Positions 14,323 to 46,436 of a stretch of DNA of 64,000 nt are shown here, one piece after another; positions within the stretch are counted from its first letter, which is position 1, and the number at the start of each line of letters is the position of its first letter. The notes beneath the pieces were generated by a model that saw only the letters and a list, made by a program, of their open reading frames with translations, searched no databases and was not told the DNA's origin. Origin of the DNA: Sandaracinus amylolyticus (lineage in GTDB: Bacteria > Myxococcota_A > Polyangia > Polyangiales > Sandaracinaceae). Where the stretch lies: positions 9,858,001 through 9,922,000 of the forward strand of contig NZ_CP070225.1 of assembly GCF_021631985.1 (NCBI RefSeq), given 5' to 3'. Made by a program: the position numbers and the translations under genes.

Positions 14323-14460
14323 CTCGTGCCGGCGAGTGTAGCCGAGCGCTGGGAGGACGCGAACGACGCACGGAAGCCCGACCACATGGGGAGGATCGTA
14401 GGCACGCGGCCGACCGGGCTCACGCTTGCCGTCTCCGTCGCGGGGCTCGAGGACGGCCCC

Positions 14461-14922
14461 ATGAGCACACCCGAGCGTCCCACGCTGGCCGCCTCCGACG
14501 AGCGCACCGCCGTCGACGAGTTCGTCCACGAGCTGCAGCAGGCGATCGACCACGCCGACGCCGATCTCTTCAACCGCAGCTTCGCGGCCGACGTGCTGTG
14601 GGGCAGTCCGTTCGGCGCGGTCGTCGACGGTTACGACGCGATCCACGCGATCCACGCGCGCATGTTCGCGTCGGTCGCGCCCGTGGCCGGCGCGTCGCGG
14701 TACGTGGTGGAGCACGCGCGGCTTCCGACGCCCGACGTGGCGATCGCCTACGTTCGCCGGATCACGTCGGTGCGCGCGACGGGCGAGGCCGAGCCCGGCA
14801 AGCCGGGGACCTTCGACGAGCTCGCGCTCTTCGTGCTCGTCCGCCGCGATGAACGGTGGTGGCTCGCCGCGGGCCAGCACGTGCCCGATCGGCGAGACGT
14901 GTACGCGCGACCCGCACCCTGA
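14461..14922 (+). CDS. SnoaL-like / SgcJ-EcaC family protein
   Basis: This 153-residue protein belongs to the NTF2-like superfamily: AVDEFVHELQQAIDHADADL, FAADVLWGSPFGAVVDGYDA, DVAIAYVRRIT, and RRDERWWLAAGQHVPDRRD. The last is the usual C-terminal strand pattern of SgcJ/EcaC proteins. The family includes ketosteroid-isomerase-like folds with diverse or unknown activity. I chose the ATG at 14461; an in-frame ATG at 14386 adds 25 residues of non-family sequence. It ends 12 bp before the large histidine kinase and is probably co-transcribed with it. Confidence 0.8.
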   Translation: MSTPERPTLAASDERTAVDEFVHELQQAIDHADADLFNRSFAADVLWGSPFGAVVDGYDAIHAIHARMFASVAPVAGASRYVVEHARLPTPDVAIAYVRRITSVRATGEAEPGKPGTFDELALFVLVRRDERWWLAAGQHVPDRRDVYARPAP

Positions 14923-14934
14923 GGGGCGCACGCG

Positions 14935-17900
14935 GTGTCCATTGTCGCGGGCGACGCCGAGCCTATGTGCGCGCGGTTCGGAGCCGGCGTCTTGGCCGAC
15001 GGAGTCAGTAGGGACGATTGCCTCGCGGGGGGCGGCGAGATGGGTGCGCGCATGCGCGCCGTCGACTGGTCGCGCACGCCGCTCGGGCCCGTCGAGCGAT
15101 GGCCGCAGAGCCTGCGCACCAGCGTCAGCACCTGCCTGAGCTCGCGCTTCCCCATCCTGCTGTGGTGGGGCCCGGAGCTGGTGAAGCTCTACAACGACGC
15201 GTACGCGGACATCGTCGGCGACAAGCACCCGCGCGCGCTGGGGCGTCCCGGGCGCGAGGTCTGGCCGGAGATCTGGCACATCATCGGGCCGATGCTCGCC
15301 AGCGTCGTCGAGCGCGGCGAGGCCACGTGGTCCGAGGACGAGATGCTCCCGATGAACCGCCACGGGTTCGTCGAGGAGACGTACTTCACGTTCTCGTACA
15401 GCCCGATCCGCGACGAGAGCGGGGGCATCGGCGGGATCTTCACCGCGGTCCAGGAGACGACCGCGAAGGTGCTCGGCGAGCGGCGGCTGCGGACGCTGCG
15501 CTCGCTCGCGAACGTCGCGGGGACCGGCACGACGCCGGCGGATGCGTGCGAGCGTGCGGCGCGTGCGCTCGCGTCCGCGCCGGCCGACGTGCCCTTCGCG
15601 CTCTTCTATCTGAGCGCGCCCGACGGGCGGAGCGCGCGGCTCGCCGCGAAGCTGGGGATCGACGTCGCCGCGGAGGAGATCTCGCTCGACGACGGGGCGG
15701 CGCCGTGGCCGCTCGCGCGCGCGGCGCGCACGGGGCTCACGGTCGTCGAGGGCGACGCGCTGCGCGGCGTCGGACCGCTGCCAGGTGGGCCATGGCCCGA
15801 GCCGGCGACCTGCGTGGTGGTGCTCCCGCTCGCGACGCCGGGGGGCGCGGGGCCGCAGGGCTTCGTCGTCGCGGGTTGCTCACCGCGCATCGCGCTCGAC
15901 GAGCGCTACCGCGCGTTCTTCTCGCTGCTCGCGGACCACGTCGCGACCGCGCTCGATCATGCGCGCGCCACGGAGGCCGCGCGCCGTCGCGCCGAGGAGC
16001 TCGCCGAGCTCGATCGACTGAAGACCGCGTTCTTCAGCAACGCGAGCCACGAGCTGCGCACGCCGCTCACGCTGATCCTCGCGCCGCTCGAGGACGCGCT
16101 GCGCGCGCCGGCGGGTCGGCTCGAGGGCGACTCGCTCGCGAGCGTGCACCGCAACGCGCTGCGGCTCCTGCGCCTCGTGAACTCGCTGCTCGACTTCGCG
16201 CGCATCGAGGCGGGTCGCGCCCGCGCGTCGTTCGAGCCGCACGATCTCGCGCAGCTGACCAGCGATCTTGCGAGCGCGTTCCGTGGTGCGATCGAGCGCG
16301 GCGGGCTCGCGCTCGAGGTCGACTGCCCGACGCTCTCGACGCCGGTCTGGGTCGACGCGGACCTCTGGGAGAAGATCGTCCTCAACCTGCTCTCAAACGC
16401 GTTCAAGTTCACGTTCGAAGGGCGCATCGGGGTGCGCCTGCGCGAGCGCGGCGAGCACGTGGTGCTCGAGGTCTCCGACACCGGCGGCGGCATCCCTCCG
16501 CACGAGCTCCCGCAGCTGTTCCAGCGCTTCCACCGCGTGCAGGGCACGCGATCGCGCACCCACGAGGGCACCGGCATCGGCCTCGCGCTGGTGCACGAGC
16601 TCGTGCACCTCCACGGCGGCACGATCGGCGTCGAGAGCACGCTCGGTCGCGGCACGACGTTCACGATCACGCTGCGCACCGGGAACGCGCACCTGCCGTC
16701 CGATCGCGTCGCGTCGCGCTCCGCGCTGCAGAGCACGCGCATCGGCGCGCGGCCCTTCGTGGAGGAGGCCGAGCGCTGGCTGCCCGACGCCGAGGAAGCG
16801 CCGAAGCCCGAGGCGCGCCCCGACGGAACGCGCGCGCGGGTGCTGGTCGCCGACGACAACGCGGACATGCGCGCGTACCTCGCGCGCTTGCTCTCGCCGT
16901 GCTTCGACGTGGTCACCGTGGAGGACGGATCGCGCGCGCTCGAGGTGATGCGCGTCGCGCCGCCCGACGTGCTGGTGAGCGACGTGATGATGCCGGGCGT
17001 CGACGGGCTCGATCTGGTGCGCGCGGTGCGCGGCGATCCCGCGCTCGCCGCGCTCCCCGTGATCCTGCTCTCGGCGCGCGCCGGCGAGGAGTCGCGGGTC
17101 GACGGGATGGGCTCGGGCGCCGACGACTACGTCGTGAAGCCGTTCTCCGGGCGCGAGCTCGTCGCGCGGGTCCGCGCGCACGTCGAGCTCGGCCGCACCC
17201 GTCGCGCGCTCGCGCACGAGCTCGCGGAGAGCGAGGAGCTCTTCCGCGTCTCGCAGGAGATCTCGCCGCTCGGGTTCTCGTACCTCTCGCCGGTGCGCGA
17301 CGCATCGGGCGCGATCGCCGACTTCGCGCTGCTCTATCAGAACGGCGCGGCGGCGCGGCTCAACGGGCTTCCCGCGGGGCGCCACGATCCTCCGCTGAGC
17401 CTGCGCGAGCACGTGCCGACGCTCCCCGGCAGCGAGCGCTGGCAGGGATATCTCAGCGTCGCGGAGACCGGGGTCACGTGGCAGCGCGAGCTCCACTACG
17501 ACAGCGCGTCGTTCGAGGGATGGGCGCGGGTCACTCTGGTGCGCCCTCGCGCCGACGCGATCGCGCTGATCGCCGAGGACGTGACGGCGCGGCGCGCGAT
17601 CGAGGACGAGCGCGCGCGCCTGCTGGAGCGGGAGCGCGAGCACTCCGCGCGCCTGCGAGGGCTCTCCGACGCCGCGCTCGACATCGTGGGCTCGGGCACC
17701 ATCGAGGCGCTGCTGCGCACCACCGCCGAGCGATCGCGCGCGCTCGTGCCTTCGCACCAGGCGATCGCGAGCGTCGCGAGCGACCTGGACGGTGCGCCGC
17801 CGACCCGCGCGGTGTCGTGGTCCGACGAGCACGCGCGCGCGGTCGACTCCGACGCGTCGTCGCTCGGCGAGCTCGAGGACGAGGTGCGCGAGACCAACCG

Positions 17901-19335
17901 CCCGCTGCGGCTCTCGCACGCGGAGCTCGTCGCGCACCCGTCGCTCCGCGATGCCGAGCGCGCGCCGCGCATGCGGGGATGGCTCGCGGCGCCGCTCGTG
18001 GGCTCGGACGGGCGCAACCTCGGGCTGGTGCAGCTCACGCATCGATGCGCCGGTGAATTTTCGGCGGAGGACGAGGCGGTGCTGGTGCAGCTCGCGGGCA
18101 TCGCGTCGATCGCGCTCGAGAACGCGCGCCTCTACGAGCTCGCGCAGGGCGAGCGACGTCGCGCCGAGCACGCGAACCGGCTCAAGGACGAGTTCCTCGC
18201 GACGATGTCCCACGAGCTGCGCACGCCGCTCAACGCGATGCTGGGATGGGCGCGCATGCTGCGCAGCGGCGCGCTGCCCGAGCACAAGCGGGCGCACGCG
18301 CTCGAGACGATCGAGCGCAACGTTCGCATCCAGACCGCGCTCATCGAGGACGTGCTCGACGTCGCGCGCATCTCGACGGGCAAGCTGCGTCTCGACGCGG
18401 CGCCGCTCGACGTCGCGCAGGTCGTCCAGGCCGCGGTCGAGATCGTGCGACCCGCGGCGGAGGGCAAGTCGATCACGCTGGAAGTCGCGCTCGACGGCGC
18501 GTGCCGCACGATGGGCGATGCGACGCGGCTGCAGCAGATCGTGTGGAACCTGCTGACGAACGCGGTGAAGTTCACGCCGCGCGGCGGACGCATCGACGTG
18601 ACGATGCGGCGCGTGGTGGTCGAGGGCGGCGCCGCGCACGTCGAGATCGCGGTGCAGGACTCGGGGCAGGGGATCCCCGAGGAATTCCTGCCTCACGTCT
18701 TCGAGCGGTTCCGTCAGGCCGACGCGTCGAGCACGCGGAAGCACGGCGGGCTCGGCCTCGGGCTCTCGGTCGTGAAGCACCTCGTGGAGCTGCACGGCGG
18801 CACGGTGCACGTCGAGAGCGAGGGCGAGGGGCGCGGCGCGCGCTTCGTGGTCCGCATCCCGATCGTGCCGCTGCGCTCGATGCCTGCGGGGCTGGTGAGC
18901 GCGGATCGCCCGCGCGTGGAGCTCGAGACGTCGGATCTGACGCGCGTCGCCGAGCTCGCCGGGCTCCGCGTGCTCTTGGTGGAGGACGAGCCCGACACGC
19001 GCGACGTGCTGCGCGCGATCCTCGAGCACTGCGGGATGTCGGTGATCGCGGCGTCGTCCGCCGAGGAGGCGCTCGCCGCGTTCGACGAGGCGCGGCCCGA
19101 GGTGCTGGTGAGCGACATCGGCATGCCAGGCACCGACGGATACGAGCTGATGCGCACGCTGCGAAGGCGGGACGACGAGCGCGCGCGGCACGTCCCCGCG
19201 CTCGCGCTCACGGCGTTCGCGAGCGACGGCGATCGCCGCCGCGCGATCGACGCCGGGTTCCAGCAGCACCTCAGCAAGCCGGTGGAGCCGGCCGAGCTGA
19301 TCGCCTCGCTCGCGCGCCTCCGCGGCGATCGGTAG
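14935..19335 (+). CDS. Hybrid sensor histidine kinase with two kinase cores and two receivers
   Basis: This 1466-residue, apparently cytoplasmic protein starts at GTG 14935, with GAGGGG eight bases upstream; ATG 14965 or 15040 are alternatives. Domains in order: a PAS-like domain at about 40-150 (GPVERWPQSLRTSV, then LWWGPELVKLYNDAY), GAF at 175-330, HisKA with H372 (NASHELRTPL) and HATPase (NLLSNAFKF, DTGGGIP), receiver 1 (D683), a PAS-like region, GAF, a second HisKA with H1093 (MSHELRTPL) and HATPase (NLLTNAVKF, DSGQGIP, GLGLGLSVV), then receiver 2 (D1394). Both ATP sites and both phospho-acceptor Asp look intact. It probably runs an internal phosphorelay; the signal is unknown. Its downstream partner is not adjacent. 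Confidence 0.93.
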   Translation: MSIVAGDAEPMCARFGAGVLADGVSRDDCLAGGGEMGARMRAVDWSRTPLGPVERWPQSLRTSVSTCLSSRFPILLWWGPELVKLYNDAYADIVGDKHPRALGRPGREVWPEIWHIIGPMLASVVERGEATWSEDEMLPMNRHGFVEETYFTFSYSPIRDESGGIGGIFTAVQETTAKVLGERRLRTLRSLANVAGTGTTPADACERAARALASAPADVPFALFYLSAPDGRSARLAAKLGIDVAAEEISLDDGAAPWPLARAARTGLTVVEGDALRGVGPLPGGPWPEPATCVVVLPLATPGGAGPQGFVVAGCSPRIALDERYRAFFSLLADHVATALDHARATEAARRRAEELAELDRLKTAFFSNASHELRTPLTLILAPLEDALRAPAGRLEGDSLASVHRNALRLLRLVNSLLDFARIEAGRARASFEPHDLAQLTSDLASAFRGAIERGGLALEVDCPTLSTPVWVDADLWEKIVLNLLSNAFKFTFEGRIGVRLRERGEHVVLEVSDTGGGIPPHELPQLFQRFHRVQGTRSRTHEGTGIGLALVHELVHLHGGTIGVESTLGRGTTFTITLRTGNAHLPSDRVASRSALQSTRIGARPFVEEAERWLPDAEEAPKPEARPDGTRARVLVADDNADMRAYLARLLSPCFDVVTVEDGSRALEVMRVAPPDVLVSDVMMPGVDGLDLVRAVRGDPALAALPVILLSARAGEESRVDGMGSGADDYVVKPFSGRELVARVRAHVELGRTRRALAHELAESEELFRVSQEISPLGFSYLSPVRDASGAIADFALLYQNGAAARLNGLPAGRHDPPLSLREHVPTLPGSERWQGYLSVAETGVTWQRELHYDSASFEGWARVTLVRPRADAIALIAEDVTARRAIEDERARLLEREREHSARLRGLSDAALDIVGSGTIEALLRTTAERSRALVPSHQAIASVASDLDGAPPTRAVSWSDEHARAVDSDASSLGELEDEVRETNRPLRLSHAELVAHPSLRDAERAPRMRGWLAAPLVGSDGRNLGLVQLTHRCAGEFSAEDEAVLVQLAGIASIALENARLYELAQGERRRAEHANRLKDEFLATMSHELRTPLNAMLGWARMLRSGALPEHKRAHALETIERNVRIQTALIEDVLDVARISTGKLRLDAAPLDVAQVVQAAVEIVRPAAEGKSITLEVALDGACRTMGDATRLQQIVWNLLTNAVKFTPRGGRIDVTMRRVVVEGGAAHVEIAVQDSGQGIPEEFLPHVFERFRQADASSTRKHGGLGLGLSVVKHLVELHGGTVHVESEGEGRGARFVVRIPIVPLRSMPAGLVSADRPRVELETSDLTRVAELAGLRVLLVEDEPDTRDVLRAILEHCGMSVIAASSAEEALAAFDEARPEVLVSDIGMPGTDGYELMRTLRRRDDERARHVPALALTAFASDGDRRRAIDAGFQQHLSKPVEPAELIASLARLRGDR

Positions 19336-19351
19336 CGCTCGAAGACCGTCG

Positions 19352-19440
19352 GAAAATCGGCTCGCCCGCCGGTCCCTACCGTCCGCGCGCTTCGCGCGCT
19401 CCCGTGCGGGACCAGCGGGACGAGCACTCCCGCAAGGGCT
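19352..19440 (-). repeat. Dispersed hairpin repeat, copy 1
   Basis: This is one of six copies of a roughly 90-base element. Outer arms CTCGCCCGCcGGTCCC and GGGACCaGCGGGaCGAG pair around an inner palindrome GCGCGCTTCGCGCGC. On the minus strand the hairpin is followed by CGATTTTC, so it looks like an intrinsic terminator for the minus-strand gene at 19531. It lies in tandem with copy 2 between convergent genes. Confidence 0.85.
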
Positions 19441-19442
19441 GC

Positions 19443-19531
19443 GAAAATCGGCTCGCCCGCCGGTCCCTACCGTGCGCGCGCTTCGCGCGCTCCCGTGCGG
19501 GACCAGCGGGACGAGCACTCCCGCAAGGGCT
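19443..19531 (-). repeat. Dispersed hairpin repeat, copy 2
   Basis: This is nearly identical to copy 1, in the same orientation, offset by 91 bases. Its last bases run into the TGA stop of the minus-strand gene at 19531. Terminator-like on the minus strand (hairpin, then a short T run). Confidence 0.85.
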
Positions 19532-19881
19532 CAAGCCTCGCCGAGCCAGCGGCGCGGGGGCGTCGCGCCGCAGAGCTGCGCCGCGCGGATGCGGGCGTCG
19601 CGGCGCGCTGCGATCGCGAGGAGCTCGGCGTCGAGCGCGAGCTCCTTCGCGCTGGGCGTGCCCCGGTTGGCGGCGCGGGCGTCGCGCAGCAGCGACTCCA
19701 TGGCCTCGAGGATCGAGAAGAAGTCGTCGATCTCCTCGAGGAGCGTGGCCACTGCGCCGGGCTCGGCGCCCGCGAGCGCGGTGCGGAGGATCTGCGTGGC
19801 CTCGGCCGCGATGCGCTCGGCGCGCGCGAGGCGGAGCTCGACGGGGGATGCGAGGAAGGTCGAGGTGGACTGCGTTCTCAT
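19531..19881 (-). CDS. Hypothetical helical protein
   Basis: A 116-residue protein from the ATG of MRTQSTSTFL; an upstream in-frame extension to 19974 is arginine-rich and unlikely. It is mostly alpha-helical (VELRLARAERIAAEATQILR, AVATLLEEIDDFFSILEAME, LALDAELLAIAARRDARIRA) and has no signal peptide. I recognise no family. It is transcribed divergently from the RegB-like kinase with a 122-bp gap. Confidence 0.55.
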   Translation of the reverse strand: MRTQSTSTFLASPVELRLARAERIAAEATQILRTALAGAEPGAVATLLEEIDDFFSILEAMESLLRDARAANRGTPSAKELALDAELLAIAARRDARIRAAQLCGATPPRRWLGEA

Positions 19882-20003
19882 GCGGCGCGACCGTGCGCTG
19901 CGACCGCAACCTCCGGCCATCCGTCGGGTGACATGGCGGTCACGAGCGTGAGCCGCTGCGACCATTTGCCGCACGGCCGGGATCGGCCCAGCGCTTAGGG
20001 TAC

Positions 20004-21248
20004 GTGCCTCGCGTGAACGGAGAGACGCACCGGTGGATCGTGGCGCTGCGCTGGGCCGCGGTGGCGGGACAGCTCGCGCTGCTCGGCGTCGCGTTCGCGC
20101 GTGGGAGCGTGGATCTACCGTGGGGCGCGCTGATCGGCGTGGTCGCGGTCGCGGCGATCTCGAACGGTGTGCTCGCGATCGTGTGGCGCAGCGGAGAGCG
20201 GCTCGTCGGTCCCGTGCTGCTGCTCGACACGCTGCTGCTCTCGGTGATGCTCGCGCTCTCGGGCGGGCCCTCGAACCCGTTCGGCGTGCTCTTCCTGGTC
20301 TACGTGACGCTCGCGGCGGTCGCGGCGAGCACGCGGTGGACGTGGGTCGTCGTGGCCGCTGCGCTCGCGGGATACGGCGCGCTCTTCGTGTGGCACCTGC
20401 CGCTGCCGCCCGAGCTCGGCGGGCACGCAGCGCACGGAGGGGGGCACGGGGCGCACGGCGAGAGCCAGGCGTTCGACGTGCACCTGCAGGGCATGTGGCT
20501 CGCGTTCGCGATCGCGGCGACGGCGATCGCGGTGTTCGTCACCCGGGTGCGGCGCGCGCTCGAGGTGGAGCGCGAGCGTGCGGCGCGCGCGGCCAAGCTG
20601 GCCGCGACCACGACCCTCGCGGCGGGCGCGGCGCACGAGCTCGCGACGCCGCTCGCGACCATCAAGATCGCAGCGCGCGAGCTGGTGCGAGAGCTCGAGG
20701 CACGACCCGAGCTCGCGGCGCTGCGCGAGGACGCGCAGCTGGTGCACCGCGAGGTCGAGCGCAGCCGCGCGGTGCTCGATCGCCTCTCGCTCGAAGCGGG
20801 CGCGGTGACCGGCGAGCCGCGCGAGCGACGGACGCTCGGCGCGCTCGGCGACGCGATCACGACGGCGATCGGCGAGCGTACGACGCGGGTGCGGATGCGT
20901 GTGAGCACGGGCGAGGTCTCGGTCCCTCCGCGCGCGATGACGCACGCCCTCGCGAGCCTCGTGCGCAACGCGCTCGATGCGAGCGATGCGCCGGTCGATC
21001 TCGCGCTCGAGCTGCGCGACGGGACGCTGATCGCGCGCGTCGAGGATCGCGGCAGCGGGATGAGCGACGAGACGCTGGCGCGGGTGGGCGAGCCCTTCTT
21101 CACGACGAAGCCGCCGGGCTCGGGCATGGGGCTCGGGGTGTTCCTCGCGCGCGCGGTGGTGGAGCAGCTCGAGGGGACGCTGCGCTTCGACTCCCAGGTC
21201 GGGCGCGGCACGGTGGTCGAGGCGACGATCCCGAGGGCGAGCGCATGA
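20004..21248 (+). CDS. regB: RegB/PrrB-like redox sensor histidine kinase
   Basis: This 414-residue protein has six hydrophobic helices in the first 190 residues, with the ubiquinone-site motif GGPSNPF (about residues 90-96) that marks RegB/PrrB sensors. A His/Gly-rich loop (GGHAAHGGGHGAHG) precedes the last helix. The phospho-acceptor is H211 in GAAHELATPLATIK, the characteristic RegB H-box, and the ATP site has RNALDAS, EDRGSGM and GSGMGLGVFLA. It contains no cysteine at all, so the redox-active cytosolic cysteine known from Rhodobacter RegB is missing. It overlaps regA by four bases (ATGA). It probably senses respiratory quinone redox state. The GTG start is supported by gene end-to-start geometry only. 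Confidence 0.88.
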   Translation: MPRVNGETHRWIVALRWAAVAGQLALLGVAFARGSVDLPWGALIGVVAVAAISNGVLAIVWRSGERLVGPVLLLDTLLLSVMLALSGGPSNPFGVLFLVYVTLAAVAASTRWTWVVVAAALAGYGALFVWHLPLPPELGGHAAHGGGHGAHGESQAFDVHLQGMWLAFAIAATAIAVFVTRVRRALEVERERAARAAKLAATTTLAAGAAHELATPLATIKIAARELVRELEARPELAALREDAQLVHREVERSRAVLDRLSLEAGAVTGEPRERRTLGALGDAITTAIGERTTRVRMRVSTGEVSVPPRAMTHALASLVRNALDASDAPVDLALELRDGTLIARVEDRGSGMSDETLARVGEPFFTTKPPGSGMGLGVFLARAVVEQLEGTLRFDSQVGRGTVVEATIPRASA

Positions 21249-21799
21249 CCGGGCGCGAGAACGCACCCTCGATCCTCGTCGTCGACGACGACGACGTGCT
21301 GCGCGAGCGGCTGGCGCGCGCGCTGGCGCAGCGGGGCCTCGCGGTGCGCACCGCGCGCGACGCCGACGAAGCGGCGAGCCTCGCGCACGCCGAGAGCCCC
21401 GAGCTCGCGCTGGTCGATCTGCGCATGCCGGGGCCCTCGGGGCTCGCGCTGATCCGCACGTTGCTGGAGATCGACCCGCACACGCGCGTGGTGGTGCTCA
21501 CCGGCTACGGCAGCATCGCGACCGCGCTCGAGGCGGTGCGGCTCGGCGCGGTGCACTACCTGCAGAAGCCCGCGGACGTCGACGAGATCCTCGCGGCGTT
21601 CCATCGCGACGAGCTGCCGCTCTCTCCGGAGATCCCGCTGCCGACGACCAGCGTGCCCTCGCTCGCGCGCGCCGAGTGGGAGCACATCCAGCGTGTGCTC
21701 ACCGACTGCGGCGGCAACGTGTCGCAGGCGGCGCGCCTGCTCGGGCTCCATCGTCGCTCGCTGCAGCGCAAGCTCTCGAAGTACCCGGTCTCGCGTTGA
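21245..21799 (+). CDS. regA: RegA/PrrA/ActR-like response regulator
   Basis: This 184-residue protein has a receiver with D58 (LALVDLRMPG), T and K switch residues (VVLTGYGS, HYLQKPAD), a short Pro-rich linker, and a Fis-type helix-turn-helix GNVSQAARLLGLHRRSLQRK that is nearly invariant in RegA proteins. It is co-translated with the RegB-like kinase. RegA homologues globally control respiration, electron-transport and carbon genes in response to redox. Targets here cannot be read from the window. Confidence 0.93.
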   Translation: MTGRENAPSILVVDDDDVLRERLARALAQRGLAVRTARDADEAASLAHAESPELALVDLRMPGPSGLALIRTLLEIDPHTRVVVLTGYGSIATALEAVRLGAVHYLQKPADVDEILAAFHRDELPLSPEIPLPTTSVPSLARAEWEHIQRVLTDCGGNVSQAARLLGLHRRSLQRKLSKYPVSR

Positions 21800-21800
21800 G

Positions 21801-21890
21801 TCCCTGCCGGAGTGCTCGTCCCGCCGGACCCGGACGGGAGCGCGCGAAGCGCGCGGACGGTAGGGCCCTGCGGGCGAGCCGATTTTTTCA
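21801..21890 (+). repeat. Dispersed hairpin repeat, copy 3
   Basis: Plus-strand orientation: GGAGTGCTCGTCCCGC, the inner palindrome GCGCGCGAAGCGCGCG, CTGCGGGCGAGCC, then GATTTTTTC. The six-T run after the long hairpin makes it a good intrinsic terminator for the regB-regA operon, which ends at 21799. Confidence 0.88.
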
Positions 21891-21980
21891 GTCCCCTGCC
21901 GGAGTGCTCGTCCCGCAGGTCCCGGACGGGAGCGCGCGAAGCGCGCGGACGGTAGGGGCCTGCGGGCGAGCCGATTTTCG
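21891..21980 (+). repeat. Dispersed hairpin repeat, copy 4
   Basis: Tandem to copy 3, same orientation, 90 bases further on, ending GAGCCGATTTTC. Together they fill the gap between regA and the convergent VWA gene that ends at 21994. Confidence 0.88.
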
Positions 21981-21993
21981 GCAGTCCTGATGG

Positions 21994-24195
21994 TCAGCGC
22001 CGGCGGTGACGTCGGCGCAGCTCGCCGAGCGGTGCGGCGAGGCGCGCGGGGTGTCGCGCGATCAAGTCGGCGTAGCGCTCGGGCGTGATCGCGAGCGCGT
22101 GCAGCACGCGCACGAACACCGTGATCGCGTCGGCCATGCGCTCGAGCGGCGGGACGCCGGGCGTCTCGAGCGTCTCGAGCACGGCGATCGCGTCGAGGGT
22201 GCGCGAGAGATCGTCGTCGTCGTCCGCGCCGGCGAGCGTGTCGGGGCCGCTGGGAAGCGCAGGGAACCAGCGATCGAAGCGGGCCTCGAGCGCGCGCAGA
22301 TCGCGGCGCATCGCGTCGAGCCGCGCGGCGGTCGCGTCGTCCGAGACACCCAGCTCGGCGAGCGCGTCCTCGAGCGGGCGCGGGTCGTCGGCGACCAGCG
22401 AAGCAGGCAGCAGCGCCGCGATCTCGTCCCACGGCGGTGTTTGCGCGGCGTACGAAGGGCTCGCGGCGTCGTCGCCGCGCTCCCACGCCTCGAGCTCGAC
22501 GTCGGACACGTGGTGATAGAAGACGCGCGCGCCGTCGCGGCGTTGGGCCTCCGCGAGCGCGCGCAGTCCGGGCCCTTCTCCGCCGAGCGCGACGATCGCG
22601 ACGCGCGTGGGCACCCCGAGCCGCTCGCGCAGCGACACGATCGCGCTCGGATCGACCGTCGCCTCGCCATCGCTGACGAGCACGATCTGGGCGCGCGTGA
22701 GCGCGACGTCGTGGCGCCGTGCCCACTCGATCTCGCGCAGCGCGTCGACGATCGCGCGCTGGATGTCGGTGCCGCCCGAGCGCTCGACGCCGACCACGTC
22801 GTCGATCGCGCGCAGCGCCTCGTCGACGGTGCGCACGCGTCGAGTGGGCTCGCTCGCGGTGTGGAAGAACCGATAGTAGAGGAGCTGCTGCACCCGCCCG
22901 CCGCGCTCGAGGCGCTCCATCAGCGCGGCGAGCTCGGCGAGGATCACCGCGTCCCGCATGCGAGCGCGCGCGCCGTGCATCGACGTCGAGCCGTCGAGCA
23001 GGAAGAGCCGCACCTCCGCGGACGCGCCGCTCCTCGCGTCGTCGCGGCGGCGAGGGCGCAGATGACGGCGCACGAGGAGCTCGCCCGACGCGAGCTGGTG
23101 CACGACGCGCCGCGGATCGTCGATCACCGCGTCGCGGAGATCCTCGACGCTGCGCACGTGCGCGAGGCGCATCCGCTCGGCGGGGAACGCGACCTCCTCG
23201 TCGCGCGGATCTTCGGCGAGGAAGCGCGCCTGGGAGAGCCCGCCGCCGATCTCGAGGCGCGCGTCGGCCGCGAGCATCGCGCGCATCGCCGCGAGGTGCG
23301 CGCCCTCGGCGACGAACGCGCGGTGGCGGCGCAGCGCGAGCGCGCGTGGTGGGGAAGCGCTCTCGAGGTCGCGCTCGACGCGTGCCCGCGCATCGTCGTA
23401 GGCGCGCTCGATCCGCGCGGCGAGCCCGGGTGGGATCGCCTCGGTGGCCGGCGCGTCGCGGAGCGGTCGCGCGAGGGGATCGAGGACGCGCGCTCGCGCG
23501 TCGTGGTGCGCGCCGAGGTAGCTCGCGGCCGCGGCGAGGGTGGTCGCGACCGGAGCGCGCCGGGCGATCGCGCCGTCGAGCTGATGCGAGAGATCGATCT
23601 CGGCGCGCACCCCACACGCGATCATGCGGCGCGTCTGCGCGAGCTCGTGCGCGACCATGCTCTTCGCAGCGCGCGCCGGCGACGCGTCGTCCAGCAGGGC
23701 GCGGCGCGCCGCTTCGAGCAGGCGCTGCCGGCGTCCGAGCCGCTCGGTCTCGAGCTCCGCTTCGTCGAGGAGCGCATCGATCGCGCGCGCTCGCGGGGCG
23801 CGCGGACCGGGGCGCGCATCGAGGGGGCGCCGCCCGAGCCCGCGCACCAGACGATCGAGCGCGTGAGGACGATCGAGCGCGGCCTCGACCCGGACGATCC
23901 AGCGATGGAGCGACGCGAGCCAGACCAGCTCCTCGCCCGGCACGTGCTCGCCCGCCGCGACGCGGAGCTCGAGCAGATCGACGTTGTGCTCGAGCTCCGC
24001 GATCAGCGCGCTCGCGTGGGCCGGCCACGTCTCGCGGGTGATTGCGCGCGACGCGGCATCCTCGAGCGCGACGGTGCGGAGCGCCTCGCCCGCGCCGAAG
24101 AAGCGCGCGCGCAGCCGAGACCACCACGGCACGATCGCGCGGACCTCGTCGGGGCGACGGAGGAGCCGCTCGATCCGCAGGTGCAGCGCGCTCAC
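21994..24195 (-). CDS. VWA-domain protein partner of a MoxR ATPase (ViaA/CoxE-like)
   Basis: This 733-residue cytoplasmic protein starts at a GTG overlapping the stop of the MoxR gene (GTGA). The first half is helical and basic. A von Willebrand A domain lies in the second half: VRLFLLDGSTSMHGARARM holds the DxSxS metal (MIDAS) motif, SGGTDIQRAI its threonine, and VLVSDGEA its aspartate. In RavA-ViaA, MoxR-CoxE and similar pairs, the ATPase uses the VWA protein as a substrate adaptor for metal insertion or complex remodelling. It is the last gene of a four-gene operon. Confidence 0.85.
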   Translation of the reverse strand: MSALHLRIERLLRRPDEVRAIVPWWSRLRARFFGAGEALRTVALEDAASRAITRETWPAHASALIAELEHNVDLLELRVAAGEHVPGEELVWLASLHRWIVRVEAALDRPHALDRLVRGLGRRPLDARPGPRAPRARAIDALLDEAELETERLGRRQRLLEAARRALLDDASPARAAKSMVAHELAQTRRMIACGVRAEIDLSHQLDGAIARRAPVATTLAAAASYLGAHHDARARVLDPLARPLRDAPATEAIPPGLAARIERAYDDARARVERDLESASPPRALALRRHRAFVAEGAHLAAMRAMLAADARLEIGGGLSQARFLAEDPRDEEVAFPAERMRLAHVRSVEDLRDAVIDDPRRVVHQLASGELLVRRHLRPRRRDDARSGASAEVRLFLLDGSTSMHGARARMRDAVILAELAALMERLERGGRVQQLLYYRFFHTASEPTRRVRTVDEALRAIDDVVGVERSGGTDIQRAIVDALREIEWARRHDVALTRAQIVLVSDGEATVDPSAIVSLRERLGVPTRVAIVALGGEGPGLRALAEAQRRDGARVFYHHVSDVELEAWERGDDAASPSYAAQTPPWDEIAALLPASLVADDPRPLEDALAELGVSDDATAARLDAMRRDLRALEARFDRWFPALPSGPDTLAGADDDDDLSRTLDAIAVLETLETPGVPPLERMADAITVFVRVLHALAITPERYADLIARHPARLAAPLGELRRRHRRR

Positions 24196-26579
24196 GGTGC
24201 ACGCACGATCGCGGCCCAGCGCGCGTCGTTCGCGCCGGCGAGCGCATCGTGCAGCGCCTTCCGGAGCGCGGCGTCGAGCGCGTGCAGCCGCGTCGCGAGG
24301 GCGCGCGCGTGATCGGCGTGCTCCGGGAGCAACGACGCGACGAGCTCGGACTCGAGCGACGTGCGGCGCAGCGCCGCCTCGTCGTGCGCGATCTGCACGA
24401 GCGTCGGGTCCGCGCCCGCCCGCGCGTGCCAGCCCTCGAGGTGCGCGACCAGCCGCTCGATGCGCGCGAGGTCGATCGACGCGAGCTGCGCGCGCGTCTC
24501 CGCGGAGAGCGCGGCGAGCGCGTCGCGTGCGCGCTCGGTCGCCCCTCGTGCGCGATCGGGCTCGTGGAGGAGCAGCGCGATCTCGCCGAGCACCAAGCAG
24601 AGCAGCGCGCGATCCTCGGACGCGCGGAGCGCGCGATACCGCGCCAGATCGAAGGGCGCATCCGAAGGTGCGCCCTCGTCGCTCGTCCGCTCGCGCGCGA
24701 GCAGCGCCCGCGCGACCCACGCGAGGTGCGCGCTCGCGGGCACCGCGTCGTGCACCCCGAGCCGCGCGAGGTGCCCGAGCACGCCGCGCACCACGTCGCG
24801 CATCGCGTCACGGCTCGGCAGCGCGAGATCGTCCGCATAGCGAGCCTCGACCAGCGGCGACAGGCGCGGGCCGAGCACCACAGCGCGCAGCGGCTCGGGC
24901 GGCGCGCCCGGCGCGAGGCTCGCGAGGTCGCGCTCCAGTCGATCGAACGCGCGCGCGAGGGGCGCGAGCGCATCGAGCGTCGTCGAGAGCCCGCGCGCGC
25001 CCCGCGCATCGAAGCCGGTGATCCGCTGCGCCGCATGAGCGTCGAGCGCGAGCCGCGCGCGATCGACCAGCGTCGCGAACCCGCGCTCCCACCGCGCTGC
25101 GTGCACGTCGGGTTGCTCGATCGACGCGCCCTCCGCCAGCAGCGCCTCGCGCAGCTCCGCCGCCTCGCGATAGCGCGCGATCTCCCCGGCGACGTCCTCG
25201 GGATCGTCGGCCGCGGTCCCCGCGAACCCGCCGAACGCGACGTGCTCGGTGAGCGCAGCGAGCGCGCGGGTCCGCATCTCGCGCGCGATCGCGCGCGCCT
25301 CGGGATCCTCGGCCTCGAGGGTCCGCGATCGCTCGAGCACGCCGCGCAGCGCGTGGAGATCGTGCGCCTCGAGCGTCGCGATCGCGATCGGCTCGGCGCG
25401 CTCCGGCTCGTTCGTCTCGACCGCGATCGGTGCGGGCTCCTCCGCTGCGACCTGCACCGGCGCCGGCGCAGGCGCTTCGACCGGCTCGTCGGGCAGCGCG
25501 CGCGCCGTGATCTCTCGGAGGCACTCGTCCCAGAGATCGTGCTCGGCCTTCATGATCGTGAGCTGCCGTCGCTCTCGCGGCTCGTGCTCCTGCGCCAGCA
25601 GCGCGTCCAGCGACGCGGGCTCCGGTCCTGCGACCACCAGCGCGAGCCGCAGCATCGCGAGATCCGAGAGCTCCGCGACGAGCGGTCGATCGCGCCGATG
25701 GAGCGCCTTGTCGAGCACGCAGATCGTCCGCAGCAGCTGCGCGAGCCGCACCGCGGTCCGCGCCGACGCGTACCGCGTCGCGACGAAGCCGGGATCCGCG
25801 CGCTCGAGCTCGCCGGTGCGCCGCTCGAACGCCGAGACCAGATCGGCGACGCGCTCGGCGAGGCTCGCCGGAACGCGCACCTCGGACGCCATCGTCTGGA
25901 GCGCGTCGAGGTCCTGGATCGTGAGGCGCGCGCTCAGCGCGGCGCGCTCGCCCACCGAGCCCGCGACCAGCCGCCGCAGGTTCGCAGGATCCGCGAAGGT
26001 GCGCGGCACGAAGCTCACGAACGCGATGCGATCGACGAACGCGAGGAGCGTGCGGCGGTTCTCCTCGAGCACCTCGGTGAGGTACCGATTCGTCGTCATC
26101 AGCGCGCACTCGATCGCGCCGCGCGTGATGCGCGCGCCCTGCTTGAGCTCGCGCTCTTCGAGCAGGTTCAGCGTCGAGCGCAGCAGCATGTCGCGCCCGT
26201 CGAGCACCTCGTCGAGGAACGCATGCACCGAGCCGAGCAGGCCCTCGTCGGTGAAGTGCACCGTGCGGCCCGAGTCCATCAGCGTGCGGAAGTCGACCGC
26301 GCCGATCAGCTCGGTGTGCACCGTGCTCTCGGTGATCTGCCGCGCGAACACGCTCGGCTCGCCGGTCGCTTCGTCGACGATGCGCGCGACCACCGCGCTC
26401 GCGAGCTGGCTCTTGCCGGTGCCCGGTGGGCCCGTCATCAGCACGTGCTGTCGCGAGAGCAGCGCGAGCGCGATCTGCTGCAGCGGATCGCGCCGCTCGA
26501 CGAAGCGCTCCTCGAGCTCGGCGAAGAAGCGCGCGAAGTGATCGAGCGCGGCGGCGCGACGGGAGTCGGAGCGCAACAT
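24192..26579 (-). CDS. MoxR/RavA-type AAA+ ATPase with long helical extension
   Basis: This 795-residue protein has an N-terminal MoxR AAA+ module at about 15-300: Walker A GPPGTGKS (50-57), a Walker B-like region near VHFTDEGLLGSVHAFLDE, sensor 1 CALMTTNRYL, and arginine finger candidates in FVDRIAFVSF. The remaining 490 residues are helical, Ala/Arg/Glu-rich and of no recognised family, much longer than the RavA tail. The GPPGTGK and lid pattern resemble RavA. It overlaps the VWA gene and follows a Cys-rich secreted protein by nine bases. Function inferred: an ATP-driven chaperone acting with the adjacent VWA protein. Confidence 0.88.
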   Translation of the reverse strand: MLRSDSRRAAALDHFARFFAELEERFVERRDPLQQIALALLSRQHVLMTGPPGTGKSQLASAVVARIVDEATGEPSVFARQITESTVHTELIGAVDFRTLMDSGRTVHFTDEGLLGSVHAFLDEVLDGRDMLLRSTLNLLEERELKQGARITRGAIECALMTTNRYLTEVLEENRRTLLAFVDRIAFVSFVPRTFADPANLRRLVAGSVGERAALSARLTIQDLDALQTMASEVRVPASLAERVADLVSAFERRTGELERADPGFVATRYASARTAVRLAQLLRTICVLDKALHRRDRPLVAELSDLAMLRLALVVAGPEPASLDALLAQEHEPRERRQLTIMKAEHDLWDECLREITARALPDEPVEAPAPAPVQVAAEEPAPIAVETNEPERAEPIAIATLEAHDLHALRGVLERSRTLEAEDPEARAIAREMRTRALAALTEHVAFGGFAGTAADDPEDVAGEIARYREAAELREALLAEGASIEQPDVHAARWERGFATLVDRARLALDAHAAQRITGFDARGARGLSTTLDALAPLARAFDRLERDLASLAPGAPPEPLRAVVLGPRLSPLVEARYADDLALPSRDAMRDVVRGVLGHLARLGVHDAVPASAHLAWVARALLARERTSDEGAPSDAPFDLARYRALRASEDRALLCLVLGEIALLLHEPDRARGATERARDALAALSAETRAQLASIDLARIERLVAHLEGWHARAGADPTLVQIAHDEAALRRTSLESELVASLLPEHADHARALATRLHALDAALRKALHDALAGANDARWAAIVRAP

Positions 26580-26588
26580 CAGCGCGGC

Positions 26589-26924
26589 TCAGCTGGCGTC
26601 GTCGCCGGCATCTTCTTCGCTGGCCGCATCGCCGCTCGCCGCGTCCTCGCTCACCTCGGCGTCCATCGCGCTCGCGTCGCGCGATCCCGCATCTTCCGAG
26701 CCGGCATCGCCCGAGCCGGCATCGCGCGGCGGCCCCGCGTCCGCTCCGCGGCACACACCGCCGATGCACTCGAGGCCGATCGCGCACTCGCTGCTGCGCG
26801 TGCAGGGCTCGCCTTCGCCCTTGGCGGTCTCGATGTCGCTGCACGCGTAGCCGCCGAGCCCGACGTGCAGCACGCCGGCGACGAGCGCGATCGCGCCGAG
26901 CCGGAGTGCTGCTTCACGAGACAT
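26589..26924 (-). CDS. Small Cys-rich secreted protein or lipoprotein with an Asp/Ala/Ser-rich tail
   Basis: This 111-residue protein has an N-terminal hydrophobic signal (LRLGAIALVAGVLHVGLGG) ending near GYAC; the lipobox is atypical. A small disulphide module follows (GEPCTRSSECAIGLECIGGV plus a final C), of the Dickkopf-like C-x6-C-x5-C-x4-C type common in myxobacterial exoproteins. The tail is low complexity, made of DAGS, EDA and SDA units. It sits inside the SPFH-MoxR-VWA operon with gaps of 15 and 9 bases, so it is co-expressed. Role unknown. Confidence 0.7.
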   Translation of the reverse strand: MSREAALRLGAIALVAGVLHVGLGGYACSDIETAKGEGEPCTRSSECAIGLECIGGVCRGADAGPPRDAGSGDAGSEDAGSRDASAMDAEVSEDAASGDAASEEDAGDDAS

Positions 26925-26939
26925 CGAGGGAGAAACCTG

Positions 26940-28088
26940 TCAGGTCGCTCGAGTTCCGCAATTCGGGCAGAACTTCGTGCCGGGCGCGAGCATGGTCTGA
27001 CACGCGGGGCAGGGCTTGGGCTGCGGGGGCGCGAGCGACGTGCCGCACTCCGCGCAGAACTTCCCGGGCGGCACCTTCGCGCTGCATCCGGGGCACGTCA
27101 CCGTCGCGCCCTGCGCCGCCTGCGCGGGCGGCGGCTGCTGCGGATAACCGCCCTGCTGCGGCTGACCGGGCTGGCCCATCTGCTGGCCGTACATGTTCGC
27201 CATCGCGAAGCCCATCCCGAGCCCCGCGCCGGCGCCGACCATGCCCGTTCCCTCGCCGCCCTTCGCCATGCCCTGACCGGCGCCGAGCATCGCCTCGCCC
27301 GCGGCGTACTGCATGAAGTTGCCGCCGGTGAGCTCGTCCTTCGCGCGCTTCTTCGCCTTGATGTCGGCGTACCGATCCTGCGCGTCCTGGATGCGCTTCA
27401 GCTCGTCGTCGCTGAAGTTGATCGTGAAGTCGCCGAGCCCGAGGAACTGCGCGCCGATCTCGCTGAGGTCGTCGCACTTCTGGAGGAACGACTGGCCCAG
27501 CTCGTCGTGGTACGCGGGCAGCGCCTGGATCTCGATCTTCTGGCGGATCACGAAGTTCGGCACGGTCTTCTTGACCGAGTTCATGAACTTCGTCTGGATG
27601 AACGACTCCACCCGGTCGTTGCTGGGCGTGCCGCCCATGCCGACGTAGTTGACGATGAACTTGTCGGGCTCGACCACGCGCCAGATGAAGGTGCCGAAGA
27701 TCCGCGGGCTCACCGTGATCTCGAGCTCGGGATCCTTCATCGGAGGGAAGGGCCCTCCGAACTTCGTGTTGCGGTTGGGCCGCATGCTCACGAAGTAGAG
27801 ATCGGTGACGAAGATGTTCCCGCCGGTGAACGAGTCGACCAGGTTCGAGAGGAACGGGATGTTGCCGGTGTCGAGCTGGTGGCGCTGTCCGACGCCCGCG
27901 GTGCGCAGCACGCCGACCAGCGAGCCGTCGCGGAAGAACACCGCCGCCTCGTCGGCATCGATCGTGAGCTGCGAGAACTTCGGGATCGTCCGTTCGGGAT
28001 GCTTGTAGACGATCAGATCCTTCGCGGAGTCGGGGCGCGCGATCATCATCTCGCGCACGCCACCGCGAACGAAGTCCATGATTCCCAT
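26940..28088 (-). CDS. SPFH-domain protein with C-terminal double zinc ribbon (YdjI / virion-core-like)
   Basis: This 382-residue protein starts at the ATG of MGIMDFVRGG, with GGGAGGG eight bases upstream. Residues about 30-230 form an SPFH/band-7 domain of the YdjI type, often annotated as 'virion core protein': VYKHPERTIPKFSQLTIDAD, EAAVFFRDGSLVGVL, then ISPRIFGTFIWRV-like strands. A Gly/Met/Gln/Pro-rich linker leads to two zinc ribbons (CPGCSAKVPPGKFCAECG and CPACQTMLAPGTKFCPNCG), eight Cys in all. SPFH proteins assemble rings or scaffolds at membranes. It is the first gene of the MoxR-VWA operon and has a divergent promoter shared with a secreted VWA protein. Confidence 0.88.
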   Translation of the reverse strand: MGIMDFVRGGVREMMIARPDSAKDLIVYKHPERTIPKFSQLTIDADEAAVFFRDGSLVGVLRTAGVGQRHQLDTGNIPFLSNLVDSFTGGNIFVTDLYFVSMRPNRNTKFGGPFPPMKDPELEITVSPRIFGTFIWRVVEPDKFIVNYVGMGGTPSNDRVESFIQTKFMNSVKKTVPNFVIRQKIEIQALPAYHDELGQSFLQKCDDLSEIGAQFLGLGDFTINFSDDELKRIQDAQDRYADIKAKKRAKDELTGGNFMQYAAGEAMLGAGQGMAKGGEGTGMVGAGAGLGMGFAMANMYGQQMGQPGQPQQGGYPQQPPPAQAAQGATVTCPGCSAKVPPGKFCAECGTSLAPPQPKPCPACQTMLAPGTKFCPNCGTRAT

Positions 28089-28196
28089 CCTGGGCCCTCC
28101 CGTATCGACGCGTATGAGGCCGCTGAGAACGCGGCGCGATCGAGACAACGCAGGATACCCGCCGGGCGTTCCCTGCGAAAGCTTCGGGAACTGCGG

Positions 28197-30410
28197 ATGA
28201 GGCGTGCTGTCCATGAGGCGATGCGAAGCGTCGCGCTCGTGATCTCGATCGTGGCGTCCGGCCTCGTCGCGAGCGACGTGTGCGCGCAGGACGCGGGCAC
28301 GCCCGAGCTCGACGAGTTCCGGCGGATGGTCGACGCCGATCCCTTCACCGCCGAGGAGAGCGACCCGATCGGCACCTCGGCGGGCGACGCCGAGATGCGC
28401 ACGATGCGGCTCCCCGATCCGGAGGAGATCGTGGAGGAGCGCATCCCGCCGGTGAGCGGCGAGGTGCTCACCGCGATCCCCGGGGTGCGCGAGACCGAGC
28501 ACCGCGCCGAGATCGAGCTGCGCGAGGGCGTCGCGATCGTGCGCGAGCGAATGACGCTGACGAGCTCGGCGCGCGTGCCCGCGGAGGCGCGCTACCGGCT
28601 CGCGGTGCCGCAGGGCGCGGTGCTCGTCGCGCTCCAGGTGTGCGCGGCGGGGGTGTGCCGCACGGGGATCGCGGATCGCGCGACCGGGCCGCTCGGTGCG
28701 TACGACGACGCGGTGCGCGCGAGCGGATCGAGCGCTGCGCCGATCGGCCACGCGACGAACGCCCAGGACGAGCGCGGCGACGCGATCGTGGTGCGCGCGG
28801 CGCCCGTGCGGCGCGCAGGGCTCGAGGTGCGCGTGACCTGGGCCCTCCGCACGATCGTGCGCGGCGGGCGGACGCGCTTCCTGGTCCCGGCGCGCGGCAA
28901 CGACGCGCGCGTGGTGGACACCCGATGGACGGTGCGCGCGATCGATCTGGTCGCACCCTCGATCGACGGAGTGCCGATCGAGACCCGCGAGGAGACGCGC
29001 CCTTCGAGCGTCCCGATCGCGCTCGGCGCGTCGCTCCCGATCACCGCGGGGGTGCGCGCGACCGCGACGAGCGTGCCGTGCGCCGCGGGTCGATGCGCGC
29101 GGATGCGCGTGGTTGCGGGGCGGCCGAGCATCGCGGGCGGCGACGTGATCGTCGCGATCGACGCATCGCCCTCGACCGTCGCCTCGGCGCGGGGGCGGAT
29201 CGCGCCGGCGGTGCGCACGCTCCTCTCGATGCTTCCGAGCGGCGTGCGGGTGCGCGTGGTCGCATTCGCAGCGCGCGCCGAGGCCGTGAGCGAATCGTGG
29301 GTCGCGCCGACCGCGGTCGAGTCGGGCGCGCTCGATCTCGCGGTAGAGCGCGAGCTCGGCTCGGCGACGCGCTTCGAGGCGCTCTGGTCGTTGGTCTCGC
29401 CGTGGGCGCGTCGTGGCACGCGGATCGTGATCGTCGGCGACGGAGGGCTCACCGCGAGCGCGGCGAGCACCGGTGCGTTCGCATCGGCATCGCGCGAGGG
29501 CGTGATCGTCGCGTCGATCGACGTCGCGGATCGCGCGAGCACCAGCGCGCTGCGCACTGCGCTCGAAGGCGTGAACGGTGTGGTGATCGACGCCGGCGCC
29601 GAGGCGGAGAGCGCGTCGGCGGGGCGCGGCAACGAGCCGCTGATCGCGCGGCTGACCTCGGCGCTCGCGCCGGTCGCGGTGCGCGCGGTGAGCGTGCGAG
29701 TCGGTGATGCGCGCCACGCGCTCGGCGTGCTCCGCGAGGGCGAAGAGCTGGTGTGGGAAGGCCCGCTCGCGGGCGCCGCGTCGATCACCCTCGACGGCGC
29801 GACCACGCGGGCCACGACGGCGAGCGCGGAGATCGGGCCCGCGCTCACCGCGCTCGCCGATCGCGGCGCGACCGCGCTCGCGGCGATCGATGCGAGCGAC
29901 GTCGCGCGCGCCGACGCGGGCTCCTGTCGTGCGCGCGGGCCCTACGCATCGAACAGCGGAGTGGTCGCGCGCGACGAGAGCATCGCGCTCGCGCACACCC
30001 GTCGTTGTGATCCGCCGCCCGCGACGAGCGCGCTCGATCGCCCGCAGCGCGAGCAGCGCAGCGGCGTCCCGGCGCGCGTGCTGCTCGCGTCGCTGCGACG
30101 TCGGGTGATCCCTCCCGCGCGCGCGTGTTTCCGCGCCGATCGTGCGGGTCGCGCGTCGTACCAGGAGCGCGCCGAGCTGCGTGTCGAGCTCGCGGATCGC
30201 GAGATCGTCGCGGTGCAGGTCGGCGGTGTGATCGAGGAGAGCCTGCGCAGCTGTCTCGAGGGCGCGCTCGACGGGCTCGACGTGCCCGGCTTCGACGGGC
30301 GCGTGATCGTGACCTGGCCGCTCTACACCGCGCCCACGCTGCCGCCTCCGGTGCTGGAGCTGCGCTCCGACGTCGCCGACGAGGTCGATCGCGTCACGGC
30401 GCCCGAATGA
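28197..30410 (+). CDS. Secreted VIT/VWA-domain protein with AgmX/PglI-like C-terminal region
   Basis: Start ATG 28197, or ATG 28221, which gives the cleaner Sec signal MRSVALVISIVASGLVASDV ending CAQ. The 737-residue product has a VIT-like beta domain (AEIELREGVAIVRERMTLTS, then YRLAVPQGAVLVALQV), followed by a VWA domain. Its MIDAS motif is IAIDASPS (DxSxS), with Asp in VIVGDGG. A C-terminal domain of about 90 residues (RVLLASLRRRVIPPARACFR, then LRVELADREIVAVQVGG) resembles the repeat found at the end of AgmX/PglI-type myxobacterial motility proteins; that resemblance is tentative. It is transcribed away from the SPFH-MoxR-VWA operon across a 108-bp gap. Confidence 0.78.
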   Translation: MRRAVHEAMRSVALVISIVASGLVASDVCAQDAGTPELDEFRRMVDADPFTAEESDPIGTSAGDAEMRTMRLPDPEEIVEERIPPVSGEVLTAIPGVRETEHRAEIELREGVAIVRERMTLTSSARVPAEARYRLAVPQGAVLVALQVCAAGVCRTGIADRATGPLGAYDDAVRASGSSAAPIGHATNAQDERGDAIVVRAAPVRRAGLEVRVTWALRTIVRGGRTRFLVPARGNDARVVDTRWTVRAIDLVAPSIDGVPIETREETRPSSVPIALGASLPITAGVRATATSVPCAAGRCARMRVVAGRPSIAGGDVIVAIDASPSTVASARGRIAPAVRTLLSMLPSGVRVRVVAFAARAEAVSESWVAPTAVESGALDLAVERELGSATRFEALWSLVSPWARRGTRIVIVGDGGLTASAASTGAFASASREGVIVASIDVADRASTSALRTALEGVNGVVIDAGAEAESASAGRGNEPLIARLTSALAPVAVRAVSVRVGDARHALGVLREGEELVWEGPLAGAASITLDGATTRATTASAEIGPALTALADRGATALAAIDASDVARADAGSCRARGPYASNSGVVARDESIALAHTRRCDPPPATSALDRPQREQRSGVPARVLLASLRRRVIPPARACFRADRAGRASYQERAELRVELADREIVAVQVGGVIEESLRSCLEGALDGLDVPGFDGRVIVTWPLYTAPTLPPPVLELRSDVADEVDRVTAPE

Positions 30411-40456: not shown

Positions 40457-40535
40457 TACCGGAGTGCTCGTCCCGCAGGTCCCGGACGGGAGCGCGCGAA
40501 GCGCGCGGACGGTAGGGACCGGCGGGCGAGCCGAT
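40457..40535 (+). repeat. Dispersed hairpin repeat, copy 5
   Basis: Single copy in plus orientation: GGAGTGCTCGTCCCGC, then the palindrome GCGCGCGAAGCGCGCG and GGGACCGGCGGGCGAG. The outer arms (CTCGTCCCGCaGGTCCC with GGGACCgGCGGGCGAG) pair almost perfectly. It directly follows the stop codon of the DUF4215 lipoprotein. Unlike the other copies it lies between two genes of the same direction and ends in GATGATG instead of a T run. Confidence 0.85.

Positions 40536-45479: not shown

Positions 45480-46436
<957 letters not shown>

Follow-up and report, generated by a model that had tools for sequence, protein, structure and literature searches.

The closely packed genes for an SPFH protein, a small Cys-rich protein, a MoxR ATPase and a VWA protein in Sandaracinus amylolyticus are best read as parts of two independent modules, which came to share an apparent transcription unit when a segment was inserted in the common ancestor of two genomes of the genus; we assign this reading a probability of about 0.82. 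The two genomes are that of the window (G000; the window is the whole stretch of 64,000 nucleotides analysed) and G001. Module A contains the SPFH and Cys-rich proteins, a divergently encoded VIT/VWA-like protein, a PEGA-domain kinase and a CAP lipoprotein, and module B is the MoxR-VWA pair. The two modules are probably not one device.

Gene calls agreed with the preliminary description on all four minus-strand genes and on the gaps of 15, 9 and -4 bp between them (Table 1). The gaps are tight both in the window's genome and in G001 (15 and 9, or 15 and -4 bp). Given such spacing, the four genes are probably co-transcribed in both genomes and may have acquired a functional link. Between G000 and G001, the genes of the locus showed dN/dS values of 0.09-0.45, indicating purifying selection. 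The divergent gene more likely starts at the ATG at 28221, where its signal peptide begins; this places it 132 bp from the SPFH gene, against 108 bp from the alternative start, and the equivalent gap in G001 is likewise 132 bp.

Table 1. Features of the locus, in window coordinates.
Feature	Position	Strand	Length and characters	Module
SPFH (Band_7_1) protein	26940-28088	-	382 aa; C-terminal four-CxxC double zinc ribbon, no transmembrane helix, YdjI-like	A
Small Cys-rich protein	26589-26924	-	111 aa; exported or membrane-anchored	A
MoxR AAA+ ATPase	24192-26579	-	795 aa	B
VWA protein	21994-24195	-	733 aa; GTG start	B
Secreted VIT/VWA-like protein	28221-30410 (alternative start 28197)	+	divergent from SPFH	A
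Ser/Thr protein kinase with PEGA domain	12631-14322	-	from Pfam and motifs	A
CAP (SCP/PR1) domain lipoprotein	10476-12101	-	lipobox VIGC; from Pfam and N-terminus	A
Segment splitting module A between Cys-rich gene and kinase	14400-26588 (edges approximate)		~12 kb; shared with G001 in the same order, missing from G002	

To read gene neighbourhoods in other genomes, each gene was represented by several tblastn queries. Neither MoxR nor VWA was found beside SPFH at any of the 52 SPFH loci other than those of the window and G001. Conversely, SPFH, Cys-rich, CAP or VIT genes were found beside MoxR-VWA at none of the 24 MoxR loci other than the same two (one stretch, L013 = L062, is counted twice, and some flanks are short); at these 24 loci, VWA adjoins MoxR wherever the contig allows. 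Many of the comparison genomes are drafts, and several of the loci, whether SPFH or MoxR, lie close to the end of a contig. Across the order, the SPFH gene is present in 60/86 genomes and MoxR in 13/86, and in G003, G007, G022, G037, G038, G039, G042, G045 and G314 (drafts, some with short contigs) both genes occur on different contigs. Only the window's genome and G001 bring the two modules together. The four genes are thus not conserved as a set in relatives, an outcome that the preliminary description had named as counting against its proposal. The RegB/RegA-like genes that it had noted as neighbours do adjoin the MoxR-VWA pair in the window and in G001, but they are not linked to it: within the family, the homologues nearest to them are found at other places, and RegB/RegA was rejected as a partner because it is found next to MoxR-VWA only in these two genomes.

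The module A genes, on the other hand, recur together. At the 52 other SPFH loci, a kinase (on the same strand, downstream of SPFH and within 3 kb) was found 25 times, a divergent VIT/VWA gene 16 times, a CAP gene 12 times and a downstream Cys-rich gene 10 times, so the divergent VWA gene and the Cys-rich gene had been rightly taken as partners of SPFH. The order divergent VIT/VWA, SPFH, Cys-rich, kinase, CAP is found in G003, G005, G007 and G009 (in G003, G007 and G009 an extra opposite-strand gene precedes the Cys-rich gene), and VIT, SPFH, kinase and CAP are present in G002, G053 and G314. The window's own kinase and CAP genes lie on the same strand as SPFH, ~12 kb downstream, and its CAP protein shares 56% identity with the one that G003 encodes in its SPFH-Cys-kinase-CAP run. 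Family f7 includes two genomes in which two SPFH genes, the second copy shorter, lie a few kb apart ahead of the kinase (L086:7523-13320 and L139:7851-12451). Beyond the VIT gene, G003, G005, G007, G053 and G241 carry a 5TMR-LYT histidine kinase with a response regulator adjoining where read, that of G007 being of the LytTR type when scanned; this pair stands beside the VIT/VWA gene in several genera, at L077:4102-6086, L078:4531-6497, L082:2306-4293 and L083:12229-14201. The window genome's homologue of this histidine kinase lies elsewhere, at G000:C1:4523428-4524633.

The SPFH protein of module A matched Pfam Band_7_1 at 58.9 bits (cut-off 24) and the double zinc ribbon also above its cut-off; its CxxC positions were located, and a hydropathy scan found no hydrophobic segment. 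In the Cys-rich protein, the motif KGxGxxCxRxxEC...L.C..G.CR is kept in the alignment and is accompanied by an acidic, low-complexity tail. The divergent protein itself gave no match to the Pfam VIT/VWA models; however, 3/7 of its aligned relatives match a VWA model and 1/7 a VIT model, and a DxSxS motif at residue 314 is invariant in the alignment. VIT/VWA is thus a fair label. Its C-terminal domain is conserved and contains Cys residues. The kinase has an N-terminal CxxC, HRD and DFG motifs, and a single transmembrane segment at ~362-392 with the PEGA domain on the far side.

How did the two modules come to be joined? The segment that separates the Cys-rich gene from the kinase holds a DUF4440 gene, a gene for a 1431-aa hybrid histidine kinase, the RegB/RegA-like pair, VWA and MoxR. 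G001 carries the same inserted block, whereas in G002, of the same genus, CAP, kinase, SPFH and VIT are contiguous, with no MoxR and no VWA. Since other genera and families also show the contiguous order of module A, insertion is a simpler direction than repeated loss, as judged from G002 and these outgroups by gene order. In the MoxR tree, the window sequence groups with that of G001 and then with those of two members of its own family, G007 and G003, with 100/100 support, although the G007 and G003 copies lie elsewhere in their genomes. This own-family grouping indicates that MoxR-VWA is indigenous to the family and changed its place in the genome, instead of being acquired from afar. By analogy with characterized pairs, MoxR-VWA would most likely be a chaperone pair of the RavA/ViaA or NorQ/NorD kind that moved into an envelope-surveillance operon.

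A palindromic repeat of ~90 bp also occurs in the window, at 21800-21978 (+), 19353-19528 (-) and 40459-40535 (+), the first two occurrences being tandem pairs. These pairs are both absent at the same places in G001, where the alignment breaks between 21799 and 21987 and between 19342 and 19529. With 40 candidates scored per genome, the repeat was matched at least 66 times in G000 and at least 71 times in G001, with no match in G002 and a trace at most in G003 and G007. Its predicted structure is a long hairpin, whose folding is not clearly superior to that of shuffled sequences (z -1.15). This repeat looks like a lineage-specific mobile element of the REP or MITE kind, located after gene ends.

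Module B has the hallmarks of a coupled pair. The MoxR stop and the VWA start overlap by 4 nt (ATGA, GTGA or TTGA) in most loci and in several families, a conservation that points to translational coupling; together with the adjacency, it upholds the pairing of MoxR with VWA made in the preliminary description. No common partner emerged upstream: the recurring gene of 215-248 aa ahead of MoxR was rejected, as it encodes DUF4013, DUF2071, an M50 peptidase or nothing recognisable depending on the locus. All 16 public loci with MoxR relatives are labelled Myxococcota or Deltaproteobacteria; in a phylum-wide sample, with few candidates scored per genome, relatives came only from the order, and in our searches the MoxR-VWA pair was confined to Myxococcota.

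The MoxR protein matches Pfam bpMoxR (PF20030) and AAA_5, as do all 14 aligned members. In the window's protein, Walker A (GPPGTGKS, at residue 50) and Walker B (at 120) are both intact; most relatives have GPPGTAKS as P-loop. Strong AAA+ conservation ends at about residue 346 and is followed by a linker (~360-405) and ~390 helical residues; in the predicted model, residues ~408-793 are all-helical and devoid of strands, with pLDDT mostly 80-90. The estimate of about 490 extra residues was therefore somewhat high, but the extra region does exist and, as had been said, it could not be placed: no Pfam family matched it in any of the 14 members. The full-length model (14-row alignment) was discarded as a guide to the fold of this domain, the AAA+ core being mostly at pLDDT 30-60 and Foldseek returning unrelated helical proteins (TM ~0.1). 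A PF07726 search of the window's genome gave 23 MoxR-like (AAA_3-like) matches, this gene not among them, which is consistent with its PF20030 match. Another MoxR gene in the window, at 45498-46433 in a plus-strand gene run, belongs to the ordinary AAA_3 type (match at G000:C1:9903606-9903998).

The VWA protein matches Pfam VWA_2, and the 13 VWA members match VWA models only. Its predicted model consists of a helical N-terminus of ~310 residues, the VWA fold and a helical C-terminus, and the MIDAS is complete (D401, S403 and S405 of the DxSxS, T476 and D509). Ahead of the VWA fold, residues 311-392 are dense in invariant positions and are modelled, at low confidence, as long strands. NorD of the NorQD complex (9qhe_G, E 0.004) was among the Foldseek matches of the model; a search with VIA-align was set aside, its matches being filled by generic VWA domains. 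NorD has been proposed to insert a beta-stabilised finger into the pore of NorQ (PMC9976466), and residues 311-392 are a candidate for a similar pore-finger task.

Among known systems, module B comes closest to RavA-ViaA of E. coli and NorQ-NorD/CbbQ-CbbO. As in RavA-ViaA, adjacent genes encode a MoxR AAA+ protein and a VWA protein whose VWA domain stands behind a long helical N-terminus. RavA is also the nearest solved relative of the AAA+ core (3nbx, 6q7l). It heads both the PDB matches (E 2e-10) and the NCBIfam matches, where its score of 40.6 bits compares with a cut-off of 681. However, the sequence match ends at the AAA+ core and does not reach the LARA and triple-helical domains of RavA; here ~390 helical residues follow with no sign of LARA; indeed, the predicted all-helical region 408-793 speaks against a LARA domain. 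Moreover, the VWA protein (733 aa) has a further helical C-terminus, and the neighbours scanned included no recognisable gene for a lysine decarboxylase or a respiratory complex. NorQ-NorD/CbbQ-CbbO likewise combine a MoxR protein with a VWA adaptor that has an intact MIDAS, and may share the extended beta segment before the VWA domain; NorQ, however, is a bare AAA+ module and lacks the large helical domain found here. For module A, the nearest comparison is YdjI, the SPFH scaffold for PspA in Bacillus, encoded in the B. subtilis pspA-ydjGHI operon (PMC8581546). Both are SPFH proteins without a transmembrane helix, expected to need membrane partners, but here the partners are the PEGA kinase, the CAP lipoprotein, the Cys-rich protein and the VIT/VWA protein, and no PspA, YdjG or YdjH was seen among the module genes scanned.

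The preliminary description had proposed a single ATP-driven remodelling machine, with MoxR-VWA tethered to an SPFH ring and exoproteins as outside partners. The tight co-directional spacing in two species would agree with it, as would the fact that RavA-ViaA and SPFH proteins both act at membranes (PMC9489729, PMC8581546). Nevertheless, the proposal fails on linkage, which does not extend outside one genus: G002, within that genus, carries the SPFH set but lacks MoxR-VWA, and nine other genomes hold both on different contigs. We consider such a machine very improbable. A milder possibility, compatible with the insertion of one module into the other, is that the insertion was kept because it is useful to express the MoxR-VWA couple together with the SPFH/Cys-rich genes (for example from a common promoter that responds to envelope stress), with no physical complex being formed. 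Gene order and short gaps have been kept at dS ~0.28-0.34 (MoxR, VWA) and the genes are under purifying selection; but only two genomes carry the junction, and a neutral arrangement would also persist that far, so this genus-specific recruitment can be advanced only tentatively.

The MoxR-VWA pair could also be the core of a biological conflict system of the kind described by Kaur et al. 2020 (PMC7159879), with VMAP, iSTAND, FtsH or beta-propeller components. These MoxR-vWA ternary systems share with module B a couple formed by a bpMoxR-type ATPase and a VWA protein, in a lineage with multicellular members; PF20030 is named after the beta-propeller ternary systems, and the P-loop GPPGTAKS of most relatives fits the GXXXTAKS reported for two of them. 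However, no beta-propeller, VMAP, iSTAND or FtsH component was found here, 0/13 VWA proteins match a beta-propeller model, the pair has no third gene as a regular neighbour across the families of the order (25 loci, some with short flanks), and PADLOC yielded only weak, P-loop-level matches. A conflict role is thus unlikely. The reading as two modules joined by insertion accounts for these observations best.

The functions of both modules are proposed here from domain analogy. Module A would be the older resident, an envelope-surveillance set whose outside parts (CAP, Cys-rich, VIT/VWA and the PEGA domain) may sense or bind the wall or envelope, while the kinase, which would span the membrane once and expose its PEGA domain on the outside, would carry the signal inward and the cytosolic SPFH protein would organise the set at the membrane as a scaffold. 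In module B, the MoxR AAA+ ring would take the VWA protein as its adaptor, by analogy with NorQ/NorD and RavA/ViaA. The MIDAS of the VWA protein may grip an acidic surface of a client, which ATP-driven movement would then remodel, a mechanism that has been proposed for NorQ/NorD (PMC9976466). MoxR probably uses its helical C-terminal domain to select or locate that client. Contact with lipid or membrane is possible, as in RavA/ViaA (PMC9489729). A limited literature search found no named description of the SPFH/PEGA-kinase/CAP/VIT-VWA module or of this MoxR-VWA subfamily, which is a weak negative.

These results replace a false composite machine with two real, testable units: a MoxR-VWA subfamily of Myxococcota with a helical domain of no known family, and a conserved SPFH/PEGA-kinase/CAP/VIT-VWA envelope module. 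Species in which the modules lie apart provide a natural control for each module alone. There is also a slim chance that, in this genus, MoxR-VWA acts on the SPFH/kinase envelope module, with the SPFH scaffold, or the partners it has outside, as the target of remodelling; if so, the locus would be a newly wired membrane-stress machine caught at birth.
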